Assembly (NCBI GenBank): GCA_937928545.1
Contig: CALGJQ010000005.1
Span: forward strand, 62,001 to 126,000
From: an uncultured Verrucomicrobiales bacterium
GTDB lineage: Bacteria > Verrucomicrobiota > Verrucomicrobiia > Verrucomicrobiales > Akkermansiaceae
Length of the DNA stretch: 64,000 nt
Direction of reading: 5' to 3'
A model generated the notes under the pieces. That model was not told the origin of the DNA. It was given only the letters and a program-made list of their open reading frames with translations, and did not search any database. Both the position numbers and the translations under genes were made by a program. Shown in pieces: positions 9,092 to 15,919 of this stretch; positions within the stretch are counted from its first letter, which is position 1, and every line of letters begins with the position of its first letter.

Positions 9092-10783
9092 ATGTGCGAC
9101 AATCCAAATATGCGCGAGTTTTCCTCGAAGGTTCTCGATGGTCCAGACCGGGCTCCTAGCCGGGCGATGCTTTATCCTGTCGGTTTTGATAAAGAAGATT
9201 TTAAGAAGCCGAAGGTCGGGGTGGCTTCGACTTGGAGTCAGGTGACTCCTTGTAATTTCCACATCGATGCGCTGGCCAAGGATTCCGCGAAGGGAGTCGA
9301 TGCGGCGGGCGGTAAGTCGGTCATTTTTAATACGATTACGATTTCAGACGGGATCTCGATGGGAACCGAGGGGATGAAGTATTCGCTGGTGAGTCGTGAG
9401 GTGATTGCGGATTCGATTGAGACCGTGGTGGGCTGTGAGGGAATGGATGGCTATGTCGCGATTGGTGGTTGTGACAAGAACATGCCGGCTTGCATTATTG
9501 CGATGGCGCGGATGAACCGACCTGCGGTCTTTGTTTACGGGGGAACGATCCTCCCAGGATGTGCCACTTTGAAAGGGGAAGAGAAGGATCTCGATATCGT
9601 TTCGGTCTTCGAGGCGGTGGGGAAGCACGCCAGTGGTGAGTTTTCGGACGAGGAACTACAGATGGTCGAAGAGAAAGCGATCCCAGGACCAGGTTCTTGC
9701 GGCGGAATGTACACCGCGAATACGATGGCGAGTGCGATCGAGGCTCTCGGGATGAGCTTGCCCAATAGCTCGGCTCAAGCGGCGATCAGCGATGATAAAA
9801 AGCGCGATAGCTTTGATGCGGGCGCGGCGGTTTTGCATCTTCTCGAGAAAGGAATCAAGCCTCGCGATATCATGACGCGGAAGGCCTTTGAGAATGCCAT
9901 CACCGTAGTGATTACGCTCGGGGGATCGACCAATGCGGTTCTTCACCTTCTTGCGATGGCTCATGCGGCAGACGTTGAGCTGCACATCGATGACTTTACA
10001 GAAATTGGCAAAAGAGTGCCGGTTCTCGCGGATCTCAAGCCAAGTGGGAAATACGTGATGGCTGAACTGGTCAAAATTGGGGGTCTTATTCCGCTGATGA
10101 AACTTCTCCTGAAGGAAGGTCTCATTCACGGCGACTGCCTGACTGTTACCGGGAAAACGATTGCGGAAAATTTGGCCAATTCACCTCTGGAGTTTCCGGA
10201 AGGGCAGGATGTGGTTCGGCCGATTGATAACCCAGTGAAGAAAGATAGCCACTTGCGCATTCTTTATGGGAACCTTGCTCCGACTGGATCGGTGGCGAAG
10301 ATTTCAGGTAAAGAGGGGCTTTCGTTCACGGGCCGTGCTCGCGTTTTTGATTCTGAAGAAGATGGAATGACGGCGATCCTGAGTGGAAAGATCGAAGCAG
10401 GGGATGTCATCGTCATTCGTCGAGAAGGACCCAAGGGTGGTCCGGGAATGCGGGAGATGCTTGGGCCGACTGCGGCGGTGATGGGGCGTGGACTAGGCGA
10501 CAAGGTGGCCTTGATCACGGATGGTCGATTCTCCGGAGGAAGCCACGGTTTCGTGGTGGGACATATTACCCCCGAGGCTCACGAAGGTGGCCCGATTGGA
10601 CTTCTTGAGGAAGGTGATACCATCACGATCGATGCTGAGAACAACGCGATTTCGACCGATGCCGATTTGGAATCTCGTCGCGCCTCTTGGGTGCAGCCTG
10701 AGCCGCGTTATACGCGCGGAGTTCTGGCAAAGTATGCTAAGCTTGTCACCAGCGCCAGTGAGGGTGCGGTGACGGATAAGTAG
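9092..10783 (+). CDS. ilvD: Dihydroxy-acid dehydratase
   Basis: This 563-residue enzyme removes water from dihydroxy-acids in valine, isoleucine and leucine synthesis. It is an iron-sulfur protein of the IlvD/Edd family. Cluster and substrate motifs are visible: [32 protein letters not shown], and the C-terminal [15 protein letters not shown]. The start is either the ATG at 9092 or a second one at 9110 (MREFSSK); neither has a clear Shine-Dalgarno site. Just upstream, the direct repeat GAAAAGTC (9057-9064) and GAAAAAGTC (9075-9083) flanks a GCTTAAGC palindrome and could be an operator. It stands alone, with a tRNA-like element 17 bases after its stop. Confidence 0.96.
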
Positions 10784-10800
10784 CGAAACAATTATAATTT

Positions 10801-10913
10801 GCTCTGAGAGGCGCTTGGACAGCCAGATGAACAAAAAGTTCATTGGAGTCGATCTTTCTGGAGAACGACCGGCCACTTCGGTGGCTCTGCGGGTTCGATT
10901 CCCGCTCAGAGCA
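10801..10913 (+). tRNA. tRNA-like gene with extra arms, identity unresolved
   Basis: The ends fold exactly like a tRNA: GCTCTGA (10801-10807) pairs with TCAGAGC (10906-10912), A10913 is the discriminator, and the T arm is GCGGG-TTCGATT-CCCGC (10889-10905) with a perfect T loop. A D-arm-like GGC/GCC stem (10810-10824) with TTGG in its loop follows. The middle is abnormal. Hairpin ATGAAC/GTTCAT (10827-10843) has loop CAAAAAG if read as a 5-bp anticodon stem, with A instead of U at position 33. Two further hairpins follow (10848-10869 and GCCAC-TTCG-GTGGC, 10872-10885). At 113 nt it is too long for an ordinary class II tRNA. The acceptor can also be drawn as 8 bp with a 4-bp T stem. CCC, not CCA, follows. 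Confidence 0.55.
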
Positions 10914-10931
10914 CCCTTTTGAAGAGAGCTA

Positions 10932-11585
10932 CTACTCTTCCTCTTTCTTCGGAAGAGGAGGGGCTCCGTCCTTGATGTCGTTGAAGAGGGAGATGTCTCC
11001 CTTGCGTCCGGCATTCTCTTGCTTGTTCGCGTAGCTGTTATTCATGCCTGCGTATAAGGCTAAGACTCCACAAACAAGAAGCCCGACAGTGTAAAGGAAG
11101 CCATTGTCTTCGCTGCTGGAAGCGAGAACGGGTTGGGCCGCTGCGACGGGGCGAGCGGGGGTTGTGACGACATTCGCCTTGGGCTTTTTCTTTGGCTTGG
11201 GCTTTTTGTCAACTTCGGGCTCATCGCTCACTTCAGAGGCCTTTTTGGCATGAGGGACGAACTCCTCTTCGTCGAGATCGTCCAATTCCTCATCGCTTAA
11301 GGTGTAAGCGAACTCAACATCACCAACGCGGATCTCGCTATCATTGCGAAGATCGATGATGGCCATTTCGTCCTCGTCCAAGGTGATGCCATTGGTCGAA
11401 TTCCGATCTCGCAGGATGTAGCCGCCTTCGACGCGCTCCATGGTGCAGTGAGTCGAAGAAATAGAAGGGCAATCGATAATGATATCGTTATCTGAGCTCC
11501 GTCCAATGCTCACTTTCTTGCGATCGAGTTGGAAACGGTAGGGCTGAGAGTTCTTTCCGGGAATGGTGATGCTTACGCGTGGCAT
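10932..11585 (-). CDS. FHA-domain membrane protein
   Basis: The ATG at 11583-11585 (MPRVSITIPG) gives 217 residues; an upstream in-frame start adds 21 residues of no clear origin. Residues about 1-95 are a forkhead-associated domain that binds phosphothreonine peptides: VSIGRSSDNDIII, SISSTHC and RDRNSTNGI hold the GR, S..H and N.G residues. An acidic and lysine-rich linker (about 100-165) follows, then one membrane segment near the C-terminus (FLYTVGLLVCGVLALYAGM). The FHA domain would face the cytoplasm. The partner kinase is not in this window. The gene is divergent from the ABC importer operon. Confidence 0.88.
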   Translation of the reverse strand: MPRVSITIPGKNSQPYRFQLDRKKVSIGRSSDNDIIIDCPSISSTHCTMERVEGGYILRDRNSTNGITLDEDEMAIIDLRNDSEIRVGDVEFAYTLSDEELDDLDEEEFVPHAKKASEVSDEPEVDKKPKPKKKPKANVVTTPARPVAAAQPVLASSSEDNGFLYTVGLLVCGVLALYAGMNNSYANKQENAGRKGDISLFNDIKDGAPPLPKKEEE

Positions 11586-11697
11586 AAAAAGAGAAGTTTG
11601 TTTCCAAAACTTGACCATAGCTGGGCTTCCTTGGCGATGAGAAAACACAATTCTGTTGGGCTTGCCTTTTTTTCAGGAAAATCAAGCATGTAGCGGT

Positions 11698-12753
11698 ATG
11701 GAAGAAATTCGGGCCGATGGGATCACCAAGAGATTTGGCGAGGTGACCGCTCTTAAGAACGTCTCTTTGAAAATTGCGAGCGGGGAGCTCTTTTTCCTCC
11801 TTGGTGGGAGTGGTTGTGGAAAGACGACTCTCCTGCGCTGCATCGCCGGCTTAGAAACGCCGACCGAAGGGCGGGTCTTTTTTGGAGATCGTGATGTCAC
11901 CGAATTGCCGACTCACAAGCGCGAGGCCGCGATGGTTTTCCAATCCTATGCGCTTTGGCCGCACATGACGGTGGGACAGAACATCGCCTTTGGCTTGGAA
12001 GAGCGGAAAGTGGAGAAGAAGGAGATTAAGAGGCGGGTTGAGGAGGCGCTCGCGATGGTGAAGTTGGAAGGATACGCGAAGCGTGGGATTGATCAGATGT
12101 CGGGTGGTCAGCAGCAGCGGGTTTCTTTGGCGCGTGCTCTGGTGGTGCGACCAAAATGCCTTTTGCTCGATGAGCCGCTTTCTAATCTCGACGCGCAGCT
12201 TCGGCTGGAGATGCGCGCGGAGATTCGTCGCATCGTGAAAGAGAATAACCTCACCGGAGTTTACGTGACGCACGATCAAGCCGAGGCGCTCTCGATGGCC
12301 GATCGAATGGCTGTGATGGATGCGGGTGAAATTGTCCAAGTCGGGCCGCCGGAGGAAATTTACCGCCAACCGTGTTCGAGTTATGTGGCCGGATTTATCG
12401 GCGAAACAAATCTCATTAAAGGAACGGCGGGCGAGGGGAATCTCGTGGAGACCGCGGTAGCTTCGCTGCGAGGGACTCCCGGTGTGGAGAGTTTTCAAGC
12501 CGTCAATGGCTCGCCGGTGGTGTTGTCGATTCGTCCTGAGGCGATTGATATCGTGAATCCAGCGGGCGTCGCTTTGACCGGCAAGATCATCGATCGGATT
12601 TATCTCGGGAGCATCATTCAATATACCGTGGAGTTGGCGGATGGCTCGGTGATGCAGGTGACGGAGCAGAATCCAAAAATCATCCGCTCGCCGGGGGAGG
12701 AGTTAGTCGGTCTGCAAGTGGCTCCTGAAGACGTGACCCTTTTAGAACGATGA
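11698..12753 (+). CDS. ABC importer ATPase, ferric-iron/FbpC-like
   Basis: The ATG at 11698 gives 351 residues. It has Walker A GGSGCGKTT (residues 36-44), the Q loop FQSYALWP, signature MSGGQQQRVSLARAL, Walker B LLLDEPLSNLD and switch YVTHDQAEALSM, followed by a C-terminal TOBE-type domain of about 110 residues. This layout is that of the CUT1/Fbp class of import ATPases (iron, thiamine, putrescine or sugar uptake). It overlaps the binding-protein gene in ATGA (12750-12753). Iron or an organic iron complex is my best guess for the substrate because the permease is the fused FbpB type, but the sequence does not prove it. Confidence 0.9.
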   Translation: MEEIRADGITKRFGEVTALKNVSLKIASGELFFLLGGSGCGKTTLLRCIAGLETPTEGRVFFGDRDVTELPTHKREAAMVFQSYALWPHMTVGQNIAFGLEERKVEKKEIKRRVEEALAMVKLEGYAKRGIDQMSGGQQQRVSLARALVVRPKCLLLDEPLSNLDAQLRLEMRAEIRRIVKENNLTGVYVTHDQAEALSMADRMAVMDAGEIVQVGPPEEIYRQPCSSYVAGFIGETNLIKGTAGEGNLVETAVASLRGTPGVESFQAVNGSPVVLSIRPEAIDIVNPAGVALTGKIIDRIYLGSIIQYTVELADGSVMQVTEQNPKIIRSPGEELVGLQVAPEDVTLLER

Positions 12754-14225
12754 AGGGAGCTTGGAAAAAATACTTGGGCGTCTTTGGGCCGATGGCTCTG
12801 GTGATTGCCGCGCCGATGATCCTGCGTGACGATGAAGCGGCGGCGATCAGCAAGGCGGAGCTGCGACTCGATATCATCACGCCGCACAACGAGTTGATCC
12901 GGCGTGAATTTGGTGAGGCTTTTTCGGAGTGGTATAAGGCGGAGAAAGGGGAGGACGTTTATGTCAATTGGCGCACGCCCGGAGGAACGAGCGAGATCAA
13001 GCGGGTGCTCGATAGCGCCTTTGGCTCGGCTGCAGATAACAATAAGGAAGGGATTGGGCTGGATCTCTTTTTTGGTGGGGGAGTTTTTGATTTTCAACTG
13101 CAGGCCAAGGAAGGTCGCTTTCAACGGCTTGCGATTTTCGAGACGGCTCCTGAGCTCTTTGCGGAGGATGTTATTCCGGAGAGCCAGAGCGGAGAGACCT
13201 ACTATCCTGAAGAACGCGATTGGTTAGGGGTCTGTCTCTCGTCCTTCGGGATTTGCTACAATACCGATAGTCTCGCGCGTCTTAAGATTCCTGCTCCTTC
13301 GACTTGGGATGAGTTGGGGAATCCTGAATACAATCGTGGGATTGCTTTGGCAGATCCGACGAAGAGCGGATCGGTCGCCAAGGCCTTCGAGATGCTGGTG
13401 CAGCAAAAAATCCATGTTCATCTCAAAGCGGGAATGGCACGAGAGGAGGCTTGTGCCAAGGGCTGGGTCGAGGGACTCAATTTGATTCAGCGCATCGGGG
13501 CGAACGCGCGTTACTTTACCGATAGTGCTTCTAAGGTTCCTCACGATGTGGCGCAGGGAAATGCAATCGCGGGAATGTGCATCGATTTCTACGGGCGATC
13601 CTTCAATGAAACGCTGAAGAAGGAAGATGGTTCTTCGCGCATCACCTTTATTTCTCCAGTGGGAGGGACTTCGATGAGTGTCGATCCGGTCGCGATTTTA
13701 AGAGGCGCGCCGCATCCTGAGTTGGCGCAGGACTTTGTCCGTTTCCTCTACACCAAGCATGGGCAGATGCTTTGGAATGCGAGGCCCGGGAGTGAAATGG
13801 GACCAAAGATGCGCGGCTTGCGGCGTCTCCCGATTCGTCGTGATCTGTATCAAGAACCTTATCTCTCGGAGATGGTCGATGCCGATGTCATGCCCTATGA
13901 AACGGCGAATGACTTCATCTACGAATATGACCTTACTGGACGTCACTTCACTCCGCTGCGGAATATCATCCGGGCGATGTGTATCGATTCTCATAACGAA
14001 ATGAAGGCGGCTTGGGCGGCTTTGATCGAGGCCGACTTTCCTCCCGAAGCGAGTGCCAAGTTTTTCGATGTCACGCCGGTGGGTTATGAATTGGCCCTCA
14101 CTGAGATTAAGAAGACGCTCAAGTCTGACGATAAGGTCGATTCGGTTCGCATGATGAATCGTCTCGGCAAGCACTTCCGCGATAACTACCGCGCTGCCGA
14201 AACCCTCGCTCAAGAAGCCCGATGA
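12750..14225 (+). CDS. Extracellular solute-binding protein of the ABC importer
   Basis: This 491-residue protein has an uncleaved-looking or atypical N-terminal hydrophobic segment (YLGVFGPMALVIAAPMIL) and then a periplasmic-binding-protein fold: LRLDIITPHNELIRREFGEAF, GFGICYNTDSL-type hinge sequence (read here as SSFGICYNTDSLARLKIP), STWDELGNPEYNRGIALADP, and a C-terminal lobe. It is longer than FbpA-type proteins (about 340 residues). The last 120 residues are an extra helical region. ATGA overlaps on both sides tie it to the ATPase and permease. It is expected to deliver the ligand to the membrane permease. Confidence 0.85.
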   Translation: MKGAWKKYLGVFGPMALVIAAPMILRDDEAAAISKAELRLDIITPHNELIRREFGEAFSEWYKAEKGEDVYVNWRTPGGTSEIKRVLDSAFGSAADNNKEGIGLDLFFGGGVFDFQLQAKEGRFQRLAIFETAPELFAEDVIPESQSGETYYPEERDWLGVCLSSFGICYNTDSLARLKIPAPSTWDELGNPEYNRGIALADPTKSGSVAKAFEMLVQQKIHVHLKAGMAREEACAKGWVEGLNLIQRIGANARYFTDSASKVPHDVAQGNAIAGMCIDFYGRSFNETLKKEDGSSRITFISPVGGTSMSVDPVAILRGAPHPELAQDFVRFLYTKHGQMLWNARPGSEMGPKMRGLRRLPIRRDLYQEPYLSEMVDADVMPYETANDFIYEYDLTGRHFTPLRNIIRAMCIDSHNEMKAAWAALIEADFPPEASAKFFDVTPVGYELALTEIKKTLKSDDKVDSVRMMNRLGKHFRDNYRAAETLAQEAR

Positions 14226-15919
14226 ATACCAAGCTCGCTTACTCGCTGACTGCCTTTGTGGGACTGTTCTTTGCGGTCTTCTTTCTCTATCCCGCCGTGG
14301 TGGTCTTAAAGGAGGCCTTTTACGTGGAAGGGGAGGGCTTCACCTTTTCTTTCGTCGGAGAGGTTTTCAAAAACCCCGTTTACACTGAGGGTCTTTGGAA
14401 TGCCTTTGCGCTTGGGGTCACGAGCACCCTAGCCTCCATCGTGATTGCCTTGCCGCTTGCGATCATTGGGCATCGCTATCTCTTTCCTTTTAAGAAGTCG
14501 CTCTCGGCTCTCATTCTTATTCCTTTGGTCCTTCCTCCCTTCGTGGGAGCGGTTGGGGTGAAGCAAATTCTCGGGATTCAAGGCGCGCTCAATGCGGTCC
14601 TCGCGGAGTTTGGGTTGATCGACCCCGCGATGCCGATCGACTGGCTAGGTGATGGTCGATTCTGGGGGGTGGTCATCATGAATGCCCTCCATCTCTATCC
14701 CATTCTTTACATGAACATTGCGGCCTCGCTGTCCAATATCGATCCTGCGATGGAGCAAGCCGCTCAGAATCTTGGTTGCCCGCCTTGGCGTCGTTTCTTG
14801 CGGATCACGCTTCCGCTCACCACCCCGGGGATCTTCGCGGGAGGAGCGATTGTCTTTATTTGGTCCTTCACCGAGTTGGGCGTTCCCTTGGTCTTCGACT
14901 ACACCCGCGTCGCGCCGGTGCAGGTTTATGACGGGATCAAAGACCTTGGCTCCAATCCTTTCCCTTACGCGCTGGTGGCGATCATGCTGGTGGTTTCAAC
15001 CTTGGTCTTTCTCCTCTCAAAAGCGGTGCTGGGACGATCAAAACTGGGCACCGCTCCTCGTCCGAAAGGGAAGAATGTCGAGGTCCGTCCCAAGGGCGGA
15101 AAGGCTTGGCTCTGCACCTTCTTTTTTGTCGGAGTCTTCTTCATCGCTTCGCTTCCCCATGCCGGAGTGGTGATTCTTTCGCTCGCGCACGATTGGTATG
15201 CTTCGATTCTCCCGGAAGCTTGGACGACTGCGCACTATGAGGAGGCCTTGAGTCATCCGCTGGTTGTTCCTTCGATCCAAAACAGTCTCTTCTATGCCTC
15301 GATGGCCACGTTGGTGGATCTCATTTTAGGAGTGGCGATTGCTTGGGTGATCGTCCGCAGCAGCATTCGTGGTCGTGCTTTCCTGGATGCTCTGGTGATG
15401 CTTCCTCTGGCGGTGCCGGGCTTGGTGATGGCCTTTGGCTATCTCGCGCTTTCGCAAGATGGCGAGGCCTTCCGCTTCCTCGTGCAGGGAGCGAAGGAGA
15501 ATCCCACGTGGCTCCTCGTCGTCGCTTATGCGGTGAGACGATTGCCTTACGTCGTGCGCTCGGCGGTGGCGGGTTTGCAGCAGAGCAATATCGCACTGGA
15601 AGAAGCGGCCCGCTCGCTCGGCGCAACGCCTGCGCGGACTTTGAGACGGGTTTCCTTGCCTCTCTTGGGGGCCAACTTGATCGCGGGAGGAATCTTAGCC
15701 TTCGCCTTCGCAATGCTGGAGGTGAGCGATAGCTTAATCCTCGCCCAGCAGTCGGAACACTTCCCAATCACGAAAGCGATTTACTCGCTCATCAGCATGC
15801 TCGGAAACGGCTACGAACTGGCCTCCGCCCTCGGGGTTTGGGCCATGGTGTTCTTGGGGATTTCCATCATCGGGGCGGTGGTGCTAGGAGGGAAAAAGGG
15901 CGGGCTTTTCAGGATGTAA
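14222..15919 (+). CDS. ABC importer permease, two fused FbpB-like halves
   Basis: This 565-residue inner-membrane protein has about 12 hydrophobic segments and two binding-protein-dependent transport domains in tandem. Each half carries an EAA loop that docks on the ATPase: EQAAQNLGCPPWRRFLRITLP in the first half (shortened: EQAAQNLG) and EEAARSLGATPARTLRR in the second. Such single-chain, duplicated permeases are typical of ferric-iron and related importers. It is the last gene of the three-gene operon and starts inside the stop of the binding-protein gene (ATGA, 14222-14225). Confidence 0.9.
   Translation: MNTKLAYSLTAFVGLFFAVFFLYPAVVVLKEAFYVEGEGFTFSFVGEVFKNPVYTEGLWNAFALGVTSTLASIVIALPLAIIGHRYLFPFKKSLSALILIPLVLPPFVGAVGVKQILGIQGALNAVLAEFGLIDPAMPIDWLGDGRFWGVVIMNALHLYPILYMNIAASLSNIDPAMEQAAQNLGCPPWRRFLRITLPLTTPGIFAGGAIVFIWSFTELGVPLVFDYTRVAPVQVYDGIKDLGSNPFPYALVAIMLVVSTLVFLLSKAVLGRSKLGTAPRPKGKNVEVRPKGGKAWLCTFFFVGVFFIASLPHAGVVILSLAHDWYASILPEAWTTAHYEEALSHPLVVPSIQNSLFYASMATLVDLILGVAIAWVIVRSSIRGRAFLDALVMLPLAVPGLVMAFGYLALSQDGEAFRFLVQGAKENPTWLLVVAYAVRRLPYVVRSAVAGLQQSNIALEEAARSLGATPARTLRRVSLPLLGANLIAGGILAFAFAMLEVSDSLILAQQSEHFPITKAIYSLISMLGNGYELASALGVWAMVFLGISIIGAVVLGGKKGGLFRM

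Follow-up and report, generated by a model that had tools for sequence, protein, structure and literature searches.

A tRNA-like non-coding RNA of Akkermansiaceae in which three hairpins replace the anticodon arm

To our knowledge, few mimics of transfer RNA (tRNA) that lack an anticodon are described in bacteria, transfer-messenger RNA (tmRNA) and the Y RNAs being those that come to mind; the allo-tRNAs and other tRNAs with an 8/4 or 9/3 branch retain an anticodon. Here we analyse an RNA gene on the + strand of a 64,000-nucleotide (nt) stretch of contig CALGJQ010000005.1 (assembly GCA_937928545.1, an uncultured Verrucomicrobiales bacterium of the Akkermansiaceae), hereafter the window. The gene spans positions 10801-10913, with its 5' end 17 nt past the stop codon of ilvD, and its last base lies 18 nt short of where a convergent FHA-domain gene ends. 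Together with four full-length relatives it forms a family of tRNA-like non-coding RNAs, and we are close to certain that the window copy is a real, conserved, structured and non-decoding RNA.

The five members, 106-112 nt long without the 3' tail, share with class II tRNAs (Leu and Ser; RF00005) a 7-base-pair acceptor stem, a 5-base-pair T arm with a TTCGANT loop (TTCRANY in the tRNA model), the GG of the D-loop and an arm in the variable-loop place, but they have no anticodon arm with a 7-nt loop and U33, the loops of their first hairpin being 5-6 nt long, and they carry two extra hairpins, A or G instead of U at position 8 and a GGC/GCC D-stem with a 9-nt loop. With the tRNA-like domain of tmRNA (RF00023) they have in common a tRNA top half without anticodon and a T-arm sequence identical to the tmRNA consensus, but they contain neither tag reading frame nor pseudoknots and reach one third of its length. 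YrlA, a bacterial Y RNA (RF02553), is likewise a small RNA of bacteria that contains a tRNA-like module, but its arms are ordered otherwise, whereas here the ends form an acceptor stem, and no Ro60 was found in most carriers. Allo-tRNAs and other non-canonical 8/4 and 9/3 tRNAs (reviewed in PMC7609411) are also odd tRNA-shaped bacterial genes, but the present family has a 7/5 branch, not the conserved 8/5, 8/4 or 9/3 branch of these and of selenocysteine tRNA, and no anticodon.

Searches with known models agreed with this comparison. ARAGORN called no tRNA in the window, the tRNA model RF00005 gave no match at 10801-10913 even with E <= 10, and both were silent on all five members; ARAGORN had been among the scans proposed by a first-pass annotation of the sequence. 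Rfam 15 gave nothing at gathering score for 10801-10913, which corresponds to no catalogued family; its sub-threshold matches cover the T arm alone, with 13-17 bits for tmRNA against a cut-off of 47 and 12.3 bits for YrlA against a cut-off of 69, the latter at model positions 31-47 of 114, close to the 5' end. A search of the literature, mostly outside subscription journals, found no account of such an RNA. Genes of this kind are overlooked by tRNA finders and Rfam.

The conserved fold and its family

Comparison of the members identifies a cloverleaf with three hairpins as the conserved fold (Table 1). In a hand-made structural alignment, 99.4% of the pair cells of the six helices are paired, compared with 34-47% in a control whose partners were slid by 1-3 columns. 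Two-sided changes occur in 18 of the 34 pairs, with none of 500 shuffles reaching the observed values, and compensatory changes are present in five of the six helices and across genera; the D-stem pairs are invariant, hence uninformative on covariation. When no structure was supplied, RNAalifold recovered the same six helices from this alignment, with 19 doubly changed pairs. The loops of hairpin 3 are UUCG, UACG, GGAA, GAAA and UUAAG, a swap between UNCG and GNRA tetraloops such as structural hairpins typically show, and those of hairpin 1 are AAAAA, UUCAU (twice), UUGAUU and UAUGAG. By eye, no consistent pairing was seen that would make kissing loops of hairpins 1 and 2. In the window copy the joining segments are short, CCG between hairpins 2 and 3 and UCU between hairpin 3 and the T arm, and the copy folds with an energy of -49.3 kcal/mol (z = -3.75; 0/200 dinucleotide shuffles as low).

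Judged from its sequence, the top half is a tRNA mimic, with a 7-base-pair acceptor, a canonical T arm and a D-loop G-G that would be able to form the elbow. The first-pass annotation had described an acceptor stem, T arm and D-like arm that fit a tRNA, with three central hairpins and a loop of five A residues where an anticodon would sit; the sequence bears out both descriptions, the fold of the former is kept in all five members, and the alignment of relatives that it recommended revealed stem-conserving compensatory changes. Its suggestion of a tRNA mimic is likewise supported, by a separate, structurally conserved RNA gene found at unrelated genomic places. It had read the branch as 7/5 or 8/4. 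Both readings are possible in the window copy, where G8 can pair with C, but the other four members have A8 and only 7/5 is conserved; with this branch and no anticodon, the link that it drew to 8/4 serine, cysteine and selenocysteine-like tRNAs does not hold.

Table 1. Features of the tRNA-like RNA gene and its immediate neighbours in the window
Feature	Position	Strand	Evidence
Acceptor stem, 5' strand, GCTCTGA	10801..10807	+	Partner 10906-10912; 5/7 pairs with two-sided changes, 100% of cells paired, five members
Positions 8-9	10808..10809	+	GA in window copy, AA in other four members
D-like arm, GGC-GCTTGGACA-GCC, 9-nt loop with G18G19	10810..10824	+	Stem and loop GG invariant, 5/5 members
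Hairpin 1, GATGAAC-AAAAA-GTTCATT, replaces anticodon arm	10826..10844	+	5/7 pairs with two-sided changes; outer G-U in 5/5
Linker, GGAG	10845..10848	+	GNAG in 5/5 members
Hairpin 2, TCGATCT-TTCTGG-AGAACGA, one A.A mismatch	10849..10868	+	5/7 pairs with two-sided changes; 96.8% of cells paired
Hairpin 3, GCCAC-TTCG-GTGGC, UUCG tetraloop, variable-arm place	10872..10885	+	100% of cells paired
T arm, GCGGG-TTCGATT-CCCGC, perfect 5 base pairs, canonical loop	10889..10905	+	TTCGA invariant; one pair with compensatory change
Acceptor stem, 3' strand, TCAGAGC	10906..10912	+	Partner of 10801-10807; pair counts over five members
Discriminator A, then CCC; CCA not encoded	10913..10916	+	Sequence
ilvD, dihydroxy-acid dehydratase	9092..10783	+	PF00920 1.7e-127, PF24877 1.3e-73
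Sigma-70-like promoter, GTGACG-N18-TATAAT, partly within ilvD end	10769..10798	+	10/12 matches; 0.1 expected by chance
Convergent FHA-domain gene	10932..11648	-	PF00498 4.5e-14

With the anticodon arm replaced by the three-hairpin module, the RNA cannot decode. No anticodon is common to the hairpin-1 loops; a UCA (UGA-reading) anticodon considered in G137 and G286 (GUUCAUC; members are designated by their genomes) was rejected, being not common to the other three. Position 8 departs from the ordinary tRNAs of the window's genome, 43 of whose 45 distinct sequences have U8. The discriminator base runs A, U, G, U, C across the five members and the first acceptor pair is G-C, A-U or C-G, a variation that reveals no synthetase identity. 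Only the G137 member encodes CCA, as do 39 of those 45 ordinary tRNAs; the 3' flank that follows the RNA in G137 matches the terminator of the neighbouring tRNA-Gly. In the Leu and Ser sets of the window's genome (assembly 92% complete) no tRNA was seen to be missing for the RNA to replace.

Since the sequence drifts fast, plain DNA similarity among 58 relatives returned nothing but short chance matches and hits to the T arms of ordinary tRNAs. Comparison of the sites downstream of ilvD in 22 congeners (23 loci including the window's own) gave one clear homologue, in G004, shrunk to 62 nt. A short pattern built from the D halves of the window and G004 copies was run on 387 genomes of the order and revealed that G137, of another genus, carries a full-length relative. 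The covariance model R1, made from the window and G137 sequences, added G286, G024 and G034 at 63-89 bits; under it all five members score 62.8-127 bits and the best background, a tRNA-Ser, at most 36.6 bits. R2, made from all five full-length sequences, gives them 95-110 bits. It detected no further member over 260 genomes of Akkermansiaceae and, in 387 genomes of the phylum, nothing but the known members above 41.5 bits, six of the best background places there being tRNA-Leu when tested, although the genome search scores few candidates per genome and weak members could be missed. A gap-pattern scan of 84,980 GTDB species yielded 51 places: the sole member, L186, is the same record stretch as G024, and the rest lie below 29 bits, those inspected being chance or ordinary tRNAs. 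The viral contigs, phages and plasmids searched held no member.

Besides the window copy, the family as found has four members, all in Akkermansiaceae: a second genus holds two (G137 and G286), a third holds one, and the remaining one belongs to the window's genus. Pairwise identities in the family are 51-88%. Carriers are rare (5/260 Akkermansiaceae genomes) and have one copy each. The five-member covariance model can now be used on other genome sets.

Proposed mode of action and its alternatives

Elbow and acceptor mimicry, the lack of decoding and selection on structure place this RNA among tRNA-like non-coding RNAs in the broad sense. We consider it fairly probable that its six helices represent a new class, in which acceptor and elbow are kept, three hairpins form a module and action in trans proceeds via tRNA-binding enzymes, in a role unlike those of tmRNA, Y RNAs and viral tRNA-like structures. 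In a tRNA it is chiefly the acceptor/T half that RNase P and the CCA-adding enzyme recognise; they could mature the three-hairpin RNA, and proteins that bind the elbow could hold it. A precursor would arise by read-through from ilvD or from a start just upstream, RNase P would cut its 5' end, and a CCA tail would be added as on a tRNA, stabilising the RNA. Once mature, it would work in trans, its elbow and acceptor docking on a tRNA-binding enzyme or on degradation machinery while the hairpin module touches a second partner, as tether, decoy or carrier. No neighbour gene is common to all members, which argues for trans action. Taken as a whole, this reading, of an uncatalogued Akkermansiaceae family with a matured top half, a three-hairpin module and action in trans, is one that we favour by a little. 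The known uses of the tRNA scaffold would be widened by such a third, compact architecture, which leaves the top half intact but rebuilds the lower one, and the family would offer a natural test of which tRNA enzymes (RNase P, the CCA-adding enzyme, T-loop modifiers and EF-Tu) act on the top half alone.

Several observations weigh against this reading. Only five members are available, two of them at 88% identity, and their alignment was padded by hand with N to suit the structure, which biases the pair counts in its favour. The lowest-energy fold of the window copy is an alternative to the cloverleaf, about 6 kcal/mol lower, in which GGAGUCGA (10845-10852, including hairpin-2 bases) can pair perfectly, with one G-U, with UCGAUUCC (10896-10903, T arm); it is not conserved in the relatives and may reflect a switch or incipient decay. 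The candidate promoter in the window would place the start near 10805, within the acceptor stem. No partner gene was found, and the variable loops and discriminator hint at no fixed target. Finally, the RNA gene is dispensable and is being lost in the window's genus, to judge from the ilvD sites of G004 and G026. Of the copies at this place, that of G000 is intact. In the G004 copy hairpins 1 and 2 are gone, the T loop has changed and the acceptor contains a mismatch; in G026 (L027) both ends are recognisable in the first 125 bases after ilvD with modest statistical support (7/1000 shuffles as good against G137, 57/1000 against the window), so that this site probably holds a decayed copy. These two genomes are sisters in the ilvD tree, and in G012 and G018, the nearest congeners of the window, the RNA is absent behind ilvD. 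An old resident lost several times fits the copies at the ilvD place; transfer may be another explanation.

The same losses favour a pseudogene, a class II tRNA gene with insertions that decays neutrally, since the syntenic copy is broken in G004 and probably in G026 and the nearest congeners lack it. The first-pass annotation had offered a decayed tRNA as one possibility and took absence from close relatives as its mark, a rule that proves misleading here, where more distant relatives hold intact copies. For the window copy we find decay very unlikely: stems co-vary across genera, with compensatory changes in 5/6 helices (matched by 0/500 shuffles), and nothing seems to be missing from the tRNA-Leu and tRNA-Ser sets when the RNA is left out. 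There is equally little to recommend a cis-acting 3' element of the ilvD mRNA, whether terminator, stabiliser or regulator, which resembles the processed 3' end also proposed at first. The distance of 17 nt from ilvD in the window, and the broken copies there in G004 and, probably, G026, would be expected of it, but the other four full-length members were not seen behind ilvD (those of G137, G286 and G034 are elsewhere, and no ilvD stands beside the member on the G024 contig), most congeners have an ilvD without the RNA, and the window copy has no T-run terminator at its 3' end.

An aminoacylated but non-decoding tRNA, charged by an anticodon-blind synthetase (Ser-, Ala- or Leu-type) and serving as donor to cell-wall or peptide modification or another non-ribosomal reaction, would explain the intact acceptor and T arm, the position of hairpin 3 in the class II variable-arm place that seryl-tRNA synthetase reads, and the best background matches, which are class II tRNAs for Ser and Leu. 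We nevertheless hold it to be unlikely, given a varying discriminator and first pair that leave no single identity, CCA unencoded in 4/5 members and no common neighbour gene. Mobility, as part of a mobile unit or as a self-moving RNA, would account for the scattered sites and patchy presence, each lineage having a different site and 5/260 genomes a copy, and the G137 copy, next to tRNA-Gly, is flanked by two near-identical terminators as though it had entered by duplication. This too is rather improbable, because genomes hold a single copy, phages and plasmids gave no match, no transposase or integrase was seen by eye among the listed adjacent open reading frames, and the broken copies at the ilvD place favour long residence. 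YrlA has a tRNA-like domain too (PMC7790460, in a passage citing Chen et al. 2014), and a weak Rfam match, to the T arm alone, points the same way. A Y RNA of this type bound by Ro60/Rsr is nonetheless extremely improbable: the T arm is near the 5' end in the YrlA model and near the 3' end here, where the ends close an acceptor stem, and a Ro60 partner was rejected, the TROVE protein being not found in 4/5 carriers and matched weakly in the fifth. Replacement of tmRNA was likewise rejected, all carriers having an ordinary tmRNA.

Surroundings of the gene and other tRNA loci

No sigma-70-like site of the kind seen before the window copy is present near the other members. Those of G137 and G286 sit downstream of tRNA-Gly, and those of G024 and G034 between unrelated genes. 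In G137, near-identical terminators follow the tRNA-Gly and the tRNA-like RNA (L106, 1476-1495 and 1610-1631), the T-run of the first terminator being exactly where the latter RNA begins, in what looks like a duplicated tRNA-plus-terminator unit. At the ilvD site of G001 (L031), an ordinary tRNA-Arg(CCT), whose sequence shows no relation to that of the tRNA-like RNA, lies 86 nt after the gene. Past the FHA-domain gene, the window holds an operon of ATP-binding cassette (ABC) type at 11656-15919, with genes for an ATPase (11656-12753), a double permease formed by fusion and a substrate-binding protein; as read from its open reading frames it resembles an iron(III) transporter.

Additionally, a one-strand array at G000:C65:22579-23747 (L088; L220 8579-9747) contains at least 6 divergent tRNA genes (Glu, Pro, Lys, Cys, Gly and Met) as well as tRNA-like stretches that ARAGORN does not call. 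Its Cys and Gly members have G8 and A8 for U8, as in the three-hairpin family; kinship of the array with this RNA was rejected, the covariance model giving at most 22 bits. At G000:C39:25510-25665 (L087), a second tRNA-Gln(TTG) and tRNA-His(GTG) have unusual bodies, and ordinary copies of both are present elsewhere in the genome.
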